Part shown: positions 35,408-44,644 of the stretch, one piece after another
How positions within the stretch are numbered: the stretch's first letter is position 1
Layout: every line of letters starts with the position of its first letter
DNA from: Pyramidobacter piscolens W5455
GTDB taxonomy: Bacteria > Synergistota > Synergistia > Synergistales > Dethiosulfovibrionaceae
Direction of reading: 5' to 3'
DNA length: 64,000 nt
Assembly: GCF_000177335.1 (NCBI RefSeq)
Contig: NZ_ADFP01000079.1
Location: 1 to 64,000, forward strand
Made by a program: the position numbers and the translations under genes
The notes under the pieces: generated by a model
Told to the model about the DNA's origin: nothing
The model's database searches: none
The model's input: only the letters and a program-made list of their open reading frames with translations

Positions 35408-36196
35408 TTATCCCAACACCACGTCCAGCGCCATCATGACGCTGAATCCCAGCGCGAACGAGAGCGTGCCGTAGTCGGAATGGGGAGGCTGCGACATCTC
35501 CGGGATCAGTTCCTCGACGACGACGTAGATCATGGCGCCGGCGGCGAAGCTGAGCAGATAGGGCATGGCCGGCACGACGAGGCCGATGGCCAGCAGCGTG
35601 CCGGCTGCGCCCAGCGGCTCGACGGCGCCGGAGAGCACACCGCCCGCGAACGCTTTCCATTTGCTCTGCCCTTCGGCGTGGAGCGGCATGGAGATGATCG
35701 CCCCTTCCGGAAAGTTCTGGATGGCGATGCCAACGGCCAGCGCCAGCGCGCTCATCGGCGTGATGTTCGCCGTGCCCGCCAGCAGCCCGGCGTAAACGAC
35801 GCCGACGGCCATGCCCTCGGGCACGTTGTGGATCGTCACCGCCAGAACCATCATCGTCGTGCGCGCCAGGCGGCTGCGCGGCCCCTCCGCCTCTTCGCTG
35901 AACTGGTGCAGGTGCGGAATGGCGTGGTCGAGCAGCAGCAGAAACAGGATCCCCAGCCAGAAGCCGGCGACCGACGGCACGACGGCGCCCCGGCCGTAAT
36001 GCGCCGCCAGATCGATGGCCGGGATCAGCAGGCTCCACACGGAGGCGGCGACCATCACGCCGGCGGCGAAGCCGGTGAGGCTTTTCTGCACGTTTTCCCT
36101 CATGCTGCCCTTCATGAAAAAAACGCAGGCCGCGCCCAGGCTCGTGCCCAAGAATGGGATCAGGATCCCCGCGGTCACGTGAACGGCGTTTGTCAC
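35408..36196 (-). CDS. zupT: ZIP-family metal transporter (ZupT-like)
   Basis: 262 residues. Eight-helix ZIP fold with the two metal-binding helices visible: VTIHNVPEGMAVGV and VGIAIQNFPEGAIIS. A short His/acid loop (DHAIPHLHQFSEE) lies between helices. Imports zinc, iron or manganese across the inner membrane. It is third in a minus-strand operon behind two methyltransferases (16-base gap), with a DtxR-like box ahead of the operon. Confidence 0.93.
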   Translation of the reverse strand: MTNAVHVTAGILIPFLGTSLGAACVFFMKGSMRENVQKSLTGFAAGVMVAASVWSLLIPAIDLAAHYGRGAVVPSVAGFWLGILFLLLLDHAIPHLHQFSEEAEGPRSRLARTTMMVLAVTIHNVPEGMAVGVVYAGLLAGTANITPMSALALAVGIAIQNFPEGAIISMPLHAEGQSKWKAFAGGVLSGAVEPLGAAGTLLAIGLVVPAMPYLLSFAAGAMIYVVVEELIPEMSQPPHSDYGTLSFALGFSVMMALDVVLG

Positions 36197-36212
36197 GATG
36201 ATTTCACTCCCG

Positions 36213-37004
36213 TCATTTTCTTCCCGTCAGCAGCGTCGAGCCCTTGAGCATCAGACGCCGGGCCTCGGCCGGGCTCATGAACATGCCCCCGGTCGTGTCG
36301 AGCAGCTGAACTTCTTCATACCCCCGCCGCTTCAGTTCGTCGGCGAAGGCCCGCATGTCGCCGTAGCGCGACGGCGTCATCAGGTCGTGAATGGCGAAGA
36401 CGCCGCCCTTCTTCAGCACGCGCAGCGTTTCCAGAAGCAATTCCTGTTTGTCGGCGCCGGTCACGTTGTGATACACGTAGTTGCTGGTGACGGCGTCGAA
36501 GCTCTCGTCGGGAAAGTCCAGCTTCAGCGCGTCGCCGCGGGCGAAGCTGACGTTGTTCGTCCCCTCGGCCGCCGCGTTGCGCTCGCAAAGCGGCTTGTTG
36601 TACGAGGCGTACTCGTGCCCCCAGCGGTCGACGCCCAGCATGGAACCCTGCGGATTGCGTTTGGCGCAGGCGATCGTCAGCGCGCCGCTGCCGCAGCCCA
36701 CGTCCAGCCCGCGGCCTCCCGGCGGCAGTTTGACGTACCGCGCCGTTCCCTCCACGACCTGACGCGCCAGCTGCCGTTTGCCATTATAGGAAAAAGCGCG
36801 GTACATGACGATGAACTGCGCCGCGAGAAGGGCGCAGAGCGCGCAGATCGTCCCGGCGGCGACGGCCCATGCGATCCGCGCCGTCCATCCCACGCCCCAG
36901 CCGGCGACGCCGAAGACGGCGAAACAAAGCCCGGCGGCCGCGGCGGCGGCGAGCAGCGCCACGATCAGACCTTTCGGCACCCAGTTTTTATAATCGGCTT
37001 TCAT
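36213..37004 (-). CDS. Membrane-anchored SAM-dependent methyltransferase
   Basis: 263 residues. Two N-terminal hydrophobic segments (about 13-35 and 45-65) anchor a class I methyltransferase domain: GLDVGCGSGALTIACAKR (motif I), MLGVDRWG, GDALKLDFPDESFDAVTSNYVYHN, LLETLRVLKKGGVFAIHDL. Substrate unknown; membrane location suggests a lipid, quinone or metallated compound. AGGAGA precedes ATG 37004. The gene lies between another methyltransferase (19-base gap) and zupT. Confidence 0.85.
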   Translation of the reverse strand: MKADYKNWVPKGLIVALLAAAAAAGLCFAVFGVAGWGVGWTARIAWAVAAGTICALCALLAAQFIVMYRAFSYNGKRQLARQVVEGTARYVKLPPGGRGLDVGCGSGALTIACAKRNPQGSMLGVDRWGHEYASYNKPLCERNAAAEGTNNVSFARGDALKLDFPDESFDAVTSNYVYHNVTGADKQELLLETLRVLKKGGVFAIHDLMTPSRYGDMRAFADELKRRGYEEVQLLDTTGGMFMSPAEARRLMLKGSTLLTGRK

Positions 37005-37023
37005 GATGCGGATTCATCTCCTG

Positions 37024-37584
37024 TCATTGTGATTCCGGCTTGCGCCCGACGACGGTGTAGATCAGGCCGCGCAGCCGTTCGTTTCTGATCACCGCGAAGC
37101 CGTGGCGCTCCATGCGCGCCGCGATGGCGTGCCGGTTTTCGGTGTGGCAGTCGCCGCTTCGCAGCAGCGGGAAAACGATGTGGTTGTCAAACCACGCTCC
37201 CAGGCCGCCGACGCCCGTGTCGGAGAGCAAATACAGCCCTCCCGGCTTGAGAACGCGGTGGGCCTCCCGCATGGCCTCGTCGGCGTAGGGATAATGGTGA
37301 AAGCTCTGAATACACGTGACGACGTCGAAAGTTCCGTCCGCCCAGGGCAGTTTGTTGGCGCTTCCCAAAACGAATTCTGCGCCGGGGATTTTTTTTCCGC
37401 GCGCGATTTCGATCATCCCTTCCGAGATGTCAAGCCCCTTGTAAACGGCGCGCCGCTGCCGGGCCAGCCCGTCGAGGAGAAACCCCGTGCCGCAGCCGAC
37501 GTCGAGCAGCGATTCGTACCGTATCTCCCGGAAATACGCCAGCGCGTCGGCGCCGCTGACTCTGGCCGGGCCGGAATAATACAC
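37024..37584 (-). CDS. SAM-dependent methyltransferase with displaced start
   Basis: Class I methyltransferase: LLDVGCGTGFLLDGLARQ, GLDISEGMIEIARGK, NKLPWADGTFDVVTCIQSFHHYP, REAHRVLKPGGLYLLSD. The only usual start is GTG 37584, but the frame continues upstream with family-like residues (TKNYEELSRRHFNKQAAVYD) to a stop, without any ATG, GTG or TTG. An ATG at 37673 is out of frame by one; one extra G in the GGGG run right after it would join the two exactly. Either a one-base deletion has broken the N-terminus, or an unusual start is used. First gene of the zupT operon. Confidence 0.75.
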   Translation of the reverse strand: MYYSGPARVSGADALAYFREIRYESLLDVGCGTGFLLDGLARQRRAVYKGLDISEGMIEIARGKKIPGAEFVLGSANKLPWADGTFDVVTCIQSFHHYPYADEAMREAHRVLKPGGLYLLSDTGVGGLGAWFDNHIVFPLLRSGDCHTENRHAIAARMERHGFAVIRNERLRGLIYTVVGRKPESQ

Positions 37585-37691
37585 GCCGGTGTTTTCGTCG
37601 TAGACGGCGGCTTGCTTGTTGAAATGGCGGCGGGAAAGTTCTTCGTAGTTTTTCGTGCCGATCGCCTCCCCATTGTCTTCTTCGAATATGA

Positions 37692-37707
37692 ATTAGTTTC
37701 AGCTAAC
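37692..37707 (-). promoter_or_regulatory. DtxR-like box ahead of the methyltransferase-zupT operon
   Basis: ATTAGTTTCAGCTAAC contains TTAG-N6-CTAA (37693-37706), the same spacing as the box at 33976 and as the DtxR consensus TTAGGTTAGCCTAA. It lies in the AT-rich upstream region of the minus-strand operon. Confidence 0.55.
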
Positions 37708-37804
37708 TATAAATATATCACGCGCCGCTTGAAAATCAAGACCTCGGGCCGCTTGGAGGAAGCGTGGAGCGCGAAGCCGTTTTTGCGCCGGCCGCCGGGC
37801 GCAT

Positions 37805-37846
37805 TTGACAAGATGAAGAAATATGTTATATTTTAGCCGAAATTAA
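37805..37846 (+). promoter_or_regulatory. Promoter of the P-type ATPase operon with a DtxR-like box
   Basis: TTGACA (37805-37810), a 16-base spacer and TATATT (37827-37832) form a strong promoter. TTAGCCGAAATTAA (37833-37846) follows at the start point. Its complement, TTAATTTCGGCTAA, matches the box at 37693 (TTAGTTTCAGCTAA) in 12 of 14 positions. Confidence 0.65.
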
Positions 37847-37910: not shown

Positions 37911-38138
37911 ATGGACAACAAGTGGCTCTATTTTGCGGCGGGAATCGTGGTTGGCGCCGGCGCCTACGCGCTGGTGCAGAGCGGCGCGGCCCGAAAGGCC
38001 GCCGTGAAGATCGCCGGCAAAGGCTTGGAACTTCAGGAAAAAGTCGCCGCCATGGCCGCGCAGGCGAAAGAATCCGCGGAAGACATTGTGGCTGAGGCGA
38101 AGGCGGCCAGGGAAACCGCCGGCGCCGCGGAAGCGTAG
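37911..38138 (+). CDS. Small single-span membrane protein partner of the P-type ATPase
   Basis: 75 residues: one N-terminal membrane span (WLYFAAGIVVGAGAYALVQS) and an Ala/Glu/Lys-rich cytoplasmic helix (KESAEDIVAEAKAARETAGA). It resembles the DUF6110-type proteins, and in layout the PacL (DUF1490) chaperones encoded beside CtpC-type ATPases in mycobacteria, which hold metal and stabilise the pump. No His or Cys is present, so any metal handling would rest on acidic residues. It is 54 bases ahead of the ATPase gene on one transcript. Confidence 0.65.
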   Translation: MDNKWLYFAAGIVVGAGAYALVQSGAARKAAVKIAGKGLELQEKVAAMAAQAKESAEDIVAEAKAARETAGAAEA

Positions 38139-38192
38139 CAGAGGACTGAAGGCGAGGCACGAACGGCGCTTCGCCTTCGTTTTATTTTCGAC

Positions 38193-40283
38193 ATGAAATA
38201 TCAGATTGTTCATGAATTGCCGGGGCGCATCCGCTTCCGCGTCGATCCCGCCGAGGCGTTTTCCGTCCGCGAGGCGGCGGTCGTCGCCGCCCTGCTGGAA
38301 ACGCAGCCTGGCATCGCGCGGGCGCAGGCGAACTGGCGCACGCGCGGCGTGCTGGTGAACTTCGCGCCGCAGAGCCGCGACGCCGTGCTGATGACGATGA
38401 CGGCGCTGACGAAAGAATTTTACGGAGAGATCGCCGCGGAGATGCCCGCCGCGCCGGAACGCCAGCCCGGGCTGGCGCAGATCCTTCTGGGCACCGCGGC
38501 GCGCGTCGCGTTCCGTTCGTTGTTCCCGCTGACCGTGCGCAACGTCATGACGGCCTGGCGCGCGCTGCCGTACTTCCGCCGCGGGCTGGGGAGCCTTGTC
38601 GGCCGGCGGCGGCTGAACGTCTCCGTCCTCGACGCGGCGGCTATCGCCGCCTCCATGCTGCAGCGCGATTTCCGCACGGCCTCGACGGTGATGTATCTGC
38701 TTGGCCTCGGCGACGAACTGGAGGAGTGGACGCATCGCCGCTCGCGCCAGAACCTCAGCGACAGCCTGCAGCTCAAAGTCGATTCCGTCTGGCTCTGCGG
38801 CGACGACGGCGTCGAGCGGAAGATCCCCGCCCGGCTCCTGAAAAAAGGCGACCGCATCGTCGTGCGCCAGGGCAGCATGATCCCCGCCGACGGCGTCGTC
38901 GTCGGCGGCGAAGCCACCGTCAACCAATCGACGATGACCGGCGAATCGGAGCCGGTGCACCGCACGCGGGACCAAAGCGTTTTCGCCGGTACGATCCTCG
39001 AGGAAGGCGAGCTGACCGTCCGCGTTACGGCGCTTGCCGGCGGCACGCGCGTCGACGAGATCGCGCGCCTGATCGACGAGTCCGAGAGCCGCAAAGCCCT
39101 CGTGCAGACCCGCGCCGAACGCATGGCCGACTCGCTCGTGCCCTACAACTTCCTGCTGGCCGGATTGATTTTCCTGTTCACGCGCAGCGTGCGGCGCGCC
39201 TCGGCGGCGCTGATGGCCGACTACTCCTGCGCGATCAAGCTGGCGACGCCGCTGACCATCCTCACGACCATGTCGGCGGGCGTCAAGCAGGGTGTGCTCA
39301 TCAAGGGCGGCAAATATCTCGAAGCCCTCAGCGCCGTGGACACCGTCGTCTTTGACAAAACCGGCACGCTCACCGTCGCGTCGCCGCAGGTGGCCCGCGT
39401 GGTGCCGCTCAACGGCTCCAGCCGCTACGACGTGCTGCGGATCGCCGCCTGTCTCGAAGAACATTTTCCGCATTCGCTGGCCCGCGCCGTCGTGCGCCGG
39501 GCCCAGGACGAAGGGCTCAAGCACGAAGAGGAGCACGACAAGCTCCAGTACGTGGTCGCGCACGGCATCCGTTCCACGCTCTACGGGCGGCAGGCCCTGA
39601 TCGGCAGCGCGCACTTCGTCTTCGACGACGAACGCGTCGCCTGCCCCGCCGCGCTCAAACGGAAGATCAGCGCCGAAGCCCGCGGCGCCACCACGCTCTA
39701 TCTGGCCCTCGGCGACAAACTGGCCGGCGTCATCTACATCGAAGACCCGCTGCGCGCCGAGGCCAAATCGGTGATCGGCGAACTGCGCCGCGAAGGCGTG
39801 CGCCGCGTCGTCATGCTCACCGGCGACAACGACCACACCGCCCGCCACGTGGCCTCCGCTCTCGGCGTGAACGAATACCGCGCCGAACTGCTGCCCGCCG
39901 GCAAGATCGACTGCATCCGCCGCATGACCGCCGCCGGCAGCAGAGTCGCCATGGTCGGCGACGGCATCAACGACAGTCCGTCGCTGGCCGCCGCCAGCGT
40001 GGGCGTCTCGCTGAGCAGCGCCACCGACATCGCCCGGGAAGTGGCCGACGTCGTGCTTTATCAGGGGCTCTCCAAGCTGCCCGTCGCCCGCCGCCTCAGT
40101 TGCCGCGCCATGGCCAAGATCCGCCGCAACTACAACGGCATCGTCGGCGTCAACTCGGCCATCATCCTGCTCGGCGTGGCGGGGATCCTCTCGCCCGGCG
40201 TCTCGGCCCTGCTGCACAATCTTTTCACGCTGGGCGTGTCGCTGTACAGCATGAAGCCCGTCAGCGGCGAAAGGGAGGATTGA
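38193..40283 (+). CDS. P1B-type metal-transporting ATPase
   Basis: 696 residues. An N-terminal HMA_2-like domain without the CxxC motif (YQIVHELPGRIRFRVDP) is followed by the pump core: actuator motif MTGESEPV, phosphorylation site DKTGTLT with Asp388, and hinge MVGDGINDSPSLAAA. The membrane metal site normally CPC reads YSCA (Ser345-Cys346-Ala347) in DYSCAIKLATPL, as in CtpC-like pumps rather than copper or zinc CPC pumps. It likely exports manganese, zinc or iron from the cytoplasm. The operon encodes a small membrane partner before it and an HMA-like protein after it; the first TTAG-N6-TTAA box suggests metal-responsive control. Confidence 0.92.
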   Translation: MKYQIVHELPGRIRFRVDPAEAFSVREAAVVAALLETQPGIARAQANWRTRGVLVNFAPQSRDAVLMTMTALTKEFYGEIAAEMPAAPERQPGLAQILLGTAARVAFRSLFPLTVRNVMTAWRALPYFRRGLGSLVGRRRLNVSVLDAAAIAASMLQRDFRTASTVMYLLGLGDELEEWTHRRSRQNLSDSLQLKVDSVWLCGDDGVERKIPARLLKKGDRIVVRQGSMIPADGVVVGGEATVNQSTMTGESEPVHRTRDQSVFAGTILEEGELTVRVTALAGGTRVDEIARLIDESESRKALVQTRAERMADSLVPYNFLLAGLIFLFTRSVRRASAALMADYSCAIKLATPLTILTTMSAGVKQGVLIKGGKYLEALSAVDTVVFDKTGTLTVASPQVARVVPLNGSSRYDVLRIAACLEEHFPHSLARAVVRRAQDEGLKHEEEHDKLQYVVAHGIRSTLYGRQALIGSAHFVFDDERVACPAALKRKISAEARGATTLYLALGDKLAGVIYIEDPLRAEAKSVIGELRREGVRRVVMLTGDNDHTARHVASALGVNEYRAELLPAGKIDCIRRMTAAGSRVAMVGDGINDSPSLAAASVGVSLSSATDIAREVADVVLYQGLSKLPVARRLSCRAMAKIRRNYNGIVGVNSAIILLGVAGILSPGVSALLHNLFTLGVSLYSMKPVSGERED

Positions 40284-40284
40284 C

Positions 40285-40596
40285 ATGAATAATCTTGTGG
40301 AAAGCTTCATCCCCGGGCGCGTGCGCCTGCGCAGCTCGCTGCTGAAAAGTCCCGCCGCGCCGCTGATCCTCGCGGCCTTCGAGGATTTGCCCGGCGTCCG
40401 CAGCGTCGAACTGAACCGGCTCACCGGCAGCCTGCTGCTCAAATACGACGCCGCCGTCCTCACCGCCGAGCGTTTGATGCCGGCCCTGCCGCTGCTCGAA
40501 CAGATCAAGGCCCTCGAACGCGAAGCTCCCGCGCCGGCGTGCACGGAACGCCTGCGCGCCCTGCTGGAACAGCTGCGTGCCCTGATCGGGCGGTAG
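40285..40596 (+). CDS. HMA-like small protein following the ATPase
   Basis: 103 residues. Opens VESFIPGRVRLRSSLLKSP, which parallels the ATPase N-terminus (HELPGRIRFRVDP); it is a separate HMA_2-type ferredoxin-like domain, also without CxxC, then a helical tail. It starts 1 base after the ATPase stop, so translation is coupled. It probably regulates or feeds the pump. Confidence 0.75.
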   Translation: MNNLVESFIPGRVRLRSSLLKSPAAPLILAAFEDLPGVRSVELNRLTGSLLLKYDAAVLTAERLMPALPLLEQIKALEREAPAPACTERLRALLEQLRALIGR

Positions 40597-40618
40597 ACTT
40601 TTCTTTTTGCTTCGCCGA

Positions 40619-40660
40619 CGGATGGGATTCGATCGTTACGACCGAATCCCATCCGTTTTT
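40619..40660 (+). terminator. Terminator of the ATPase operon
   Basis: 13-bp stem CGGATGGGATTCG / CGAATCCCATCCG (40619-40631, 40643-40655) followed by TTTTT. Confidence 0.93.
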
Positions 40661-40714
40661 GCGTTTCCGTCAAAACCCTCCAGCGTAAGGATTGGCGCGG
40701 ATCGGCGGATGAAA

Positions 40715-40730
40715 TGTTCCACGTGGAACA
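40715..40730. other. parS-like centromere site 2
   Basis: TGTTCCACGTGGAACA again, embedded in a 20-bp palindrome (AATGTTCCACGTGGAACATT, 40713-40732). Intergenic, downstream of a terminator, identical in its 16-bp core to sites 1 and 3. Confidence 0.88.
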
Positions 40731-43836: not shown

Positions 43837-44644
43837 AGCGTGTTCACGCTAAATTGCATCTACAATCATAGCAAAGTAGATGAATCCACAGAACAGCATG
43901 TCAAGCTTATCGTAACGGGTAAATATTTTCCGAAATCGCTTAAGACGCAGGAAATATCGCTCTATCTCATTGCGTTGCTTTTATCATACTCTCTTGGATC
44001 TGTGCGGTTCGATTTTGGAGGAACAACCGGAGAATACCCCTTCTCCACCGCTTTTCTCCGTATATTCTCTCCCTCGTAAGCTTTGTCTATCAGGATGTAT
44101 TTTTGCTCTGGGACTCTTATGATCTTGTCAAGCAGAGCGAGCCCTTCCAGCGAGTCATGGGCTTCTCCCTCGGAGAGCGCGAAGCTGACAGCCGATCTGT
44201 CAGTTGCGGTGACCATATGAATCTTCGTTGTGAGCCCGCCTCATGATCTTCCAATGGCCTGTTTTCCTCTTTTTTTAAAGCGCCTGTTCCGTTGGGATGA
44301 ACCTTTACCGATGTGCTGTCCAGGCAGATCGATTCGACCTTTATGCGAATAATGTTCTCCACTTGCAACGCTTCAAACAGGCGCTGTAAAACGCCGTTTT
44401 TGCTCCACCTGTTCATGCGTACATAAATCGTATGCCAGTTTCCATAGGATTTCGGCAATGCCCTCCATTTGCAACCGTTTCCCGTGACATACAGTATCGC
44501 ATTGATCAGTTGGAGATTGCTCATACTCACATTCCCGCGCTGACGCGGCAAGTGTTTTTCAATCCGATCATATTGTTCTTGCGTAATTTCCATATGTACA
44601 TTATAGATTACTATTGGGTAATTGTCTATTAGTGTGAACATACT
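43837..44644 (-). mobile_element. IS5-family element, left copy (defective)
   Basis: Terminal repeats AGTATGTTCACACTAA (complement of 44629-44644) and AGCGTGTTCACGCTAA (43837-43852). Two overlapping transposase frames on the minus strand: the first 44117-44593, the second from 44216 downwards. Compared with the copy at 53289, a 10-base deletion near 43983 shifts the second frame and truncates it at DPREYDKSNAMR. Flanks are CTAG on one side and CTAA on the other, so there is no perfect target duplication. This copy is inactive. Confidence 0.88.

Follow-up and report, generated by a model that had tools for sequence, protein, structure and literature searches.

The original ferrosome paper reportedly identified FezB as a P1B-6 ATPase and found fez operons to be sufficient in foreign hosts. 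The ferrosome set consists of a P1B-6 ATPase (FezB) and a small membrane protein (FezA) according to excerpts of PMC12574912 and PMC11334425. The PMC12574912 excerpt states that the membrane protein FezA and the transporter FezB are needed for C. difficile ferrosomes and that the fezA and fezB products are repressed by Fur. The C. difficile operon is fezXAB and the ferrosome content is iron phosphate (PMC11533511, in part), and six fez genes give rise to ferrosomes in R. palustris CGA009 (PMC12016538, in part). FezC is a ferrosome cytochrome with DUF4405 homology and heme binding in the accessible part of PMC11334425.

PacL1–CtpC of Mycobacterium tuberculosis has a single-span, Ala/Glu-rich protein encoded ahead of a P1B pump, as does the locus described here, and PacL1 holds CtpC in membrane foci. 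The accessible text of PMC9374683 describes DUF6110 proteins as related to PacL, without its metal-binding motif, and typically encoded with P1B6 pumps, and that of PMC13043812 terms them PacL-like. The PacL-like layout that the first-pass annotation saw in this DNA is therefore in print already for DUF6110 proteins paired with P1B6 ATPases. Those pairs, recognized from gene neighborhoods, correspond in kind to the pair found here. They differ in that the copy described here scores below the Pfam cut-off for DUF6110 (PF19605; 21.3 versus 26 bits) and is accompanied by a third, HMA_2 gene. The sections of the two papers that were available propose efflux platforms, not iron stores.

The window is a 64,000-nucleotide stretch of the 2.56 Mb genome of Pyramidobacter piscolens W5455. 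Three of its ORFs form one plus-strand operon, with 54 bases between genes 1 and 2 and a single base between genes 2 and 3. Judged by its likeness to FezA, FezB, and FezC in subfamily, gene order, and domain content, this trio is probably a compact fez cluster that loads Fe(II). The ORFs and their translations agree with the first-pass description of a 75-residue single-span protein with an Ala/Glu-rich tail ahead of an ATPase, a metal site that is SCA and not CPC (DYSCA in the translation), and an HMA-like protein without CxxC that starts 1 base after the ATPase. The promoter scan returned four promoter-like sites in the scanned stretch compared to 0.5 expected. The terminator-like hairpin was missed by the automated scan, whose loop limit of 8 is shorter than its loop. 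Compared over 636 codons with a relative from the same genus, the ATPase gene differs 147, 109, and 290 times at codon positions 1, 2, and 3, a pattern that is as expected for a selected protein. This third-position bias and the recurrence of the triad in other genera argue that the trio is not a chance arrangement.

Table 1. Features of the trio and of the divergent operon beside it, in window coordinates.
Feature	Position	Strand	Remarks
ZIP (ZupT-like) transporter	35408-36196	-	divergent operon 35408-37584 beside the trio
Two methyltransferase-domain proteins	36213-37004, 37024-37584	-	divergent operon 35408-37584 beside the trio
Palindromic box AATTAGTTTCAGCTAAC	37691-37707		overlaps or directly adjoins the -10 of the leftward sites listed below
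Leftward promoter-like sites	37739-37706	-	scan
Promoter-like site TTGACA-16-TATATT, 5' of first gene	37805-37832	+	sigma-70-like, 11/12 matches (scan)
75-aa single-span small protein, FezA-like/PacL-like, DUF6110 relative	37911-38138	+	
696-aa P1B-6-type ATPase, FezB-like, HMA-like N-terminus without CxxC	38193-40283	+	
DYSCA metal-site motif, residues 343-347, replaces CPC	39219-39233	+	invariant, 26 aligned relatives
HN motif, residues 675-676, last membrane helix	40215-40220	+	invariant, 26 aligned relatives
103-aa HMA_2 protein, FezC-like N-terminal half, without two-histidine membrane hairpin	40285-40596	+	
Terminator-like GC-rich hairpin and T-run, 3' of third gene	40620-40660	+	by eye

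The ATPase matches TIGR01525 with 500 bits (cut-off 346), and its metal-site sequence is LMADYSCAIKLATP. The catalytic motifs are complete in the alignment of 26 relatives, where DKTG (residues 388–391) is as invariant as DYSCA and HN. In the P1B classification literature, P1B-6 pumps are marked by a metal-site helix that carries an SCA-type motif and not CPC. HN in the last membrane helix is named as a P1B6 feature in the accessible text of PMC9374683, which gives it for CtpC as well, and the window pump shares it with CtpC. The N-terminus scores 18.7 bits for HMA_2, under the cut-off of 30. The AlphaFold model has a mean pLDDT of 81.9 and a pTM of 0.68, and the closest structure to it is the zinc P1B ATPase 4umw (E 2.9e-43). 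Maximum-likelihood analysis placed all 22 SCA-type pumps, one of which reads SCV, in one clade with support of 100/99 in a midpoint-rooted tree of 33 of the 34 chosen rows (L078, with no frame that passed the filter, left out) that has several long branches. The clade includes pumps of Desulfovibrionaceae, Azospirillum, and others. Its sister, also with support of 100/99, is a Rhodococcus CPC pump encoded downstream of a DUF1490 (PacL) protein, and both CPC paralogues of the window genome fall outside the clade. Relatives of the pump on viral contigs served only as an outgroup because the metal sites read were CPC, SPC, or GAC. The SCA and HN motifs, the HMA-like N-terminus without CxxC, and a place in the tree among the SCA pumps and separate from the CPC pumps assign the window ATPase to the P1B-6 type. 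Fe(II) is given as the P1B-6 substrate in a review table (PMC7558416), and iron is favored over manganese as the likely substrate on family grounds only.

The small protein has a glycine-rich single span and, after it, a charged Ala/Glu-rich segment that contains KGLELQ and DIVAEA, in agreement with the family pattern. Its other Pfam scores are 17.9 bits for YtxH and 15.7 bits for DUF1490 (E 0.017, under the cut-off of 28.4); one relative reaches E 7e-5 for DUF1490, also under the cut-off. The family profile matches Rhodococcus PacL with E 1.9e-5 and probability 78, and it matches the YtxH-type protein of an Azospirillum gene run described below with E 9e-7 and probability 91. Rhodococcus PacL has a C-terminal His motif. 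The first-pass annotation held that the small protein has no His or Cys metal ligands, and neither residue occurs in its sequence, so the C-terminal metal-binding motif of the PacL type is absent.

In a survey of named loci, the small protein counted as linked to the pump if it was encoded upstream on the same strand, no more than 900 nt from where the ATPase starts. Linkage by this measure holds for 77 of 80 named loci, which are the 80 best among at least 595 stretches that match an SCA pattern; this is not a random survey because the loci were picked by pump likeness and the HMM was made from 13 Synergistota copies. Two of the three unlinked loci in this set have no upstream sequence. The 80 best loci come from Synergistota, Desulfovibrionaceae, Sutterellaceae, Bacillota, and Archaea. 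Of 149 Synergistota genomes, 17 have DUF6110, at 19 places (15 above the Pfam cut-off), and 28 have the pump, at 30 places (E up to 1e-110). A pump match was obtained in 33 Synergistota stretches, most of them located via DUF6110; the small protein lies upstream in 30, and two of the three misses lack upstream sequence. Among the Synergistota loci located via the pump alone and having upstream sequence, the window excluded, it is present in 11 of 12. The neighborhood survey proposed in the first-pass annotation thus finds the two genes linked, both in the named loci and in the pump-located Synergistota loci, and their pairing is conserved across phyla, as is the place of the small-protein gene immediately ahead of the pump gene.

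The third protein matches HMA_2 (PF19991) with 44 bits (cut-off 30), and the GRxRxR with which it begins is also found at the N-terminus of the ATPase. In structure comparison its top matches are HMA domains from copper and mercury proteins, the best at E 0.03 and none below 0.001. An HMA_2-type protein follows the pump in 55 of the 80 best named loci, or in 53 of the 75 among them with more than 350 nt of downstream sequence. It was found in 22 of the 33 Synergistota stretches, was doubtful in one more, and was undetected in 10. The window protein has the same HMA_2 start as proteins encoded after SCA pumps in Sutterellaceae and many Desulfovibrionaceae, where a hydrophobic hairpin with two conserved His extends the chain. 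Of four hairpin-bearing proteins scanned, one matched DUF4405 weakly (E 0.07), the family to which FezC is reported to be homologous. Both the window protein and the corresponding Synergistota proteins end ahead of the hairpin position, and the trio's third protein therefore differs from FezC in the absence of the heme-type hairpin reported for the latter. The hairpin-bearing form of FezC, present in D. magneticus, is not general to ferrosome clusters because the C. difficile operon is fezXAB. Nor is the reduced third gene unique to Synergistota, since several Desulfovibrio loci (L116, L118, L119, L132, L133, L135, L136, L138, L139, and L148) have a hairpin-less HMA_2 protein of ~95–100 residues after the pump.

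The idea that a separate DUF4405 cytochrome stands in for the missing hairpin was considered and rejected. The window genome has one DUF4405 match, a membrane protein (L170 5249-7908, G000:C24) near a frame that is ApbE-like by eye, and it therefore probably belongs to a flavinylation electron-transfer cluster. The contig also carries a FeoB gene, at a distance of ~8 kb.

The trio shares with the fez clusters (D. magneticus fezABC, C. difficile fezXAB, and R. palustris RPA2333-2338) a P1B-6-type pump and an adjacent small membrane protein, and, as in D. magneticus fezABC, the FezC-like gene comes directly after the pump. Desulfovibrionaceae, which contain relatives of the trio, are presumably the family of the first ferrosome species. 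An Azospirillum plasmid carries a six-gene run (HMA2, HMA2/cation transporter, two hypotheticals, YtxH, and an SCA pump) adjoining an iron ABC transporter. This run resembles the six fez genes of R. palustris, and a similar run on an Arcobacter plasmid is near TonB receptors. Unlike the described fez clusters, the trio is in Synergistota, and no Fur box was seen upstream of it. Fur-like boxes matching at least 11 of 14 positions occur in 8 of 97 upstream stretches of relatives compared to 1.6 expected (maximum 7 in 200 shuffles), where the 97 contain some loci in duplicate and the 8 include one near-identical pair. At 12 or more of 14 positions, there are 3 of the 97 compared to 0.14 expected (maximum 2 in 200 shuffles).

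Because FezB is said to be a P1B-6 ATPase and fez operons reportedly suffice in foreign hosts, the trio should load Fe(II) into vesicles, and P. piscolens would be expected to form ferrosomes. Powered by ATP, the FezB-like ATPase would move a divalent metal, most likely Fe(II), from the cytoplasm to the other side of a membrane. The FezA-like/PacL-like protein would act as a scaffold that clusters or stabilizes the pump and may help the pump-rich membrane become intracellular iron-storing vesicles. The HMA_2 protein appears to be a FezC relative that has the ligand-free ferredoxin-like domain but no heme-type hairpin in the membrane. Its probable docking site is the pump, whose N-terminus has a like domain. 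Points against the fez reading are the small protein's DUF6110 score below the cut-off, the lack of a Fur box ahead of the trio and of a heme hairpin in the third protein, the 10 of 33 Synergistota stretches in which the third gene was undetected, and a ferritin that the genome also encodes. The idea that a ferrosome takes the place of ferritin was rejected because the window genome and one other (G007) carry both pump and ferritin.

The first-pass annotation favored a manganese- or iron-type export system. A plasma-membrane exporter modeled on PacL1 would expel excess Fe(II) or Mn(II), with the small protein keeping the pump in membrane foci. It draws on the PacL-like label given to DUF6110 proteins in the accessible text of PMC13043812, on the profile match to Rhodococcus PacL, and on the PacL-linked pump that is sister to the SCA clade. 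The trio differs from PacL1–CtpC, however, in its SCA motif in place of CPC and its non-actinobacterial host, and the small protein lacks the C-terminal metal-binding motif, which is a His motif in Rhodococcus PacL. The characterized SCA-type (FezB) systems make iron stores, in the excerpts available. Export is consequently the less supported claim: a P1B-6 ATPase with a small membrane protein is the set needed for ferrosomes in those excerpts, so filling an intracellular iron store is likelier than efflux, and we regard a plasma-membrane exporter as unlikely. A manganese exporter is not the leading reading because the texts that give this pump type and its adjacent small protein a tested role concern iron storage; it is retained as a rival. 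Ferrosome-like vesicles could instead hold another metal such as manganese or cobalt, given that SCA and HN alone do not reveal metal choice and that the divergent operon has a ZIP-family (ZupT-like) gene. This is improbable: the ferrosomes described so far contain iron in the accessible accounts, and relatives of the trio have Fur-like boxes or adjoin iron uptake genes.

A decaying, non-functional operon retained by chance is more improbable still. The operon is patchy in the genus, being present in the window genome and two of five other same-genus genomes and absent from the remaining three, and the sister species (G001) retains only scraps. Against decay in the window itself are the three intact frames, the complete catalytic motifs, and the third-codon-position bias of the differences. 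A search for the pump (E up to 1e-90) found it in 4 of 41 genomes including the window's own, and contig ends truncate two of the three matches in other genomes. The flanks of the trio site in G001 are 90–92% identical to the window, and the interval holds ordered scraps that correspond to window positions 38829-38868, 39488-39575, 40528-40563, and 40573-40726. Tblastn recovered pump residues 208–226 and 431–468 and third-protein residues 79–94 from G001. The operon was most likely lost in G001. Recent horizontal gain is not favored because these ordered ATPase and third-gene scraps at the same place indicate deletion of an older copy. The deletion scar lies at about 6880-7330 of L161, reverse strand. 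The match to the window stops at 37727 in G004 and G005, and at this point G004 has a 155-aa frame that is IS30-type transposase-like by eye (L162 6647-7114). A 174-aa frame in the window (44117-44641, minus strand) resembles an IS5-type transposase fragment by eye.

The trio does not appear to be a new kind of exporter. It looks like a member of a known cluster type, the ferrosome cluster, unremarkable in kind and with good support as a family. A compact fez cluster here would extend the ferrosome system to Synergistota and make a testable organelle system of an operon that family libraries label as no more than a heavy-metal ATPase accompanied by unknown partners. We give about even chances to a broader proposal that the PacL–Ctp platforms and FezA–FezB derive from one ancestral scaffold/P1B module, and that Synergistota have a minimal ferrosome maker in which FezC became a heme-free, ligand-free HMA_2 adaptor. 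If this is correct, PacL-like proteins and FezA build pump-dense membrane by one mechanism, and iron storage does not need heme redox by FezC. If FezA and PacL are one family, PacL1 tools could be used on FezA ferrosome building, and vice versa. In the open-access literature searched, no paper joins 'PacL' with 'FezA' or 'ferrosome'. The accessible part of PMC13043812, a 2026 effluxosome paper, discusses DUF6110 as 'PacL-like' and does not contain the words 'ferrosome' or 'FezA'. The comparison made here brings together PacL and ferrosome work, which appear separate in that literature. Specialist attention is best given to the third protein, which is heme-free, and to the PacL connection.

The palindromic box AATTAGTTTCAGCTAAC was considered as a metal-responsive control site of the trio and rejected because it lies at or next to the leftward -10 and is still present in sister genome G001, which lost the trio. 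Its position and retention make it likelier part of the methyltransferase–ZIP operon. A close match to this box, the perfect palindrome AATTAGTTTAAACTAAT, occurs elsewhere in the window genome (L168 2302-4026, G000:C59) between a gene that is flavodoxin-like by eye and a divergent gene. The flavodoxin-like gene adjoins the only DtxR-type regulator found in this genome, and the box and its match near the trio suggest a DtxR-type regulon.
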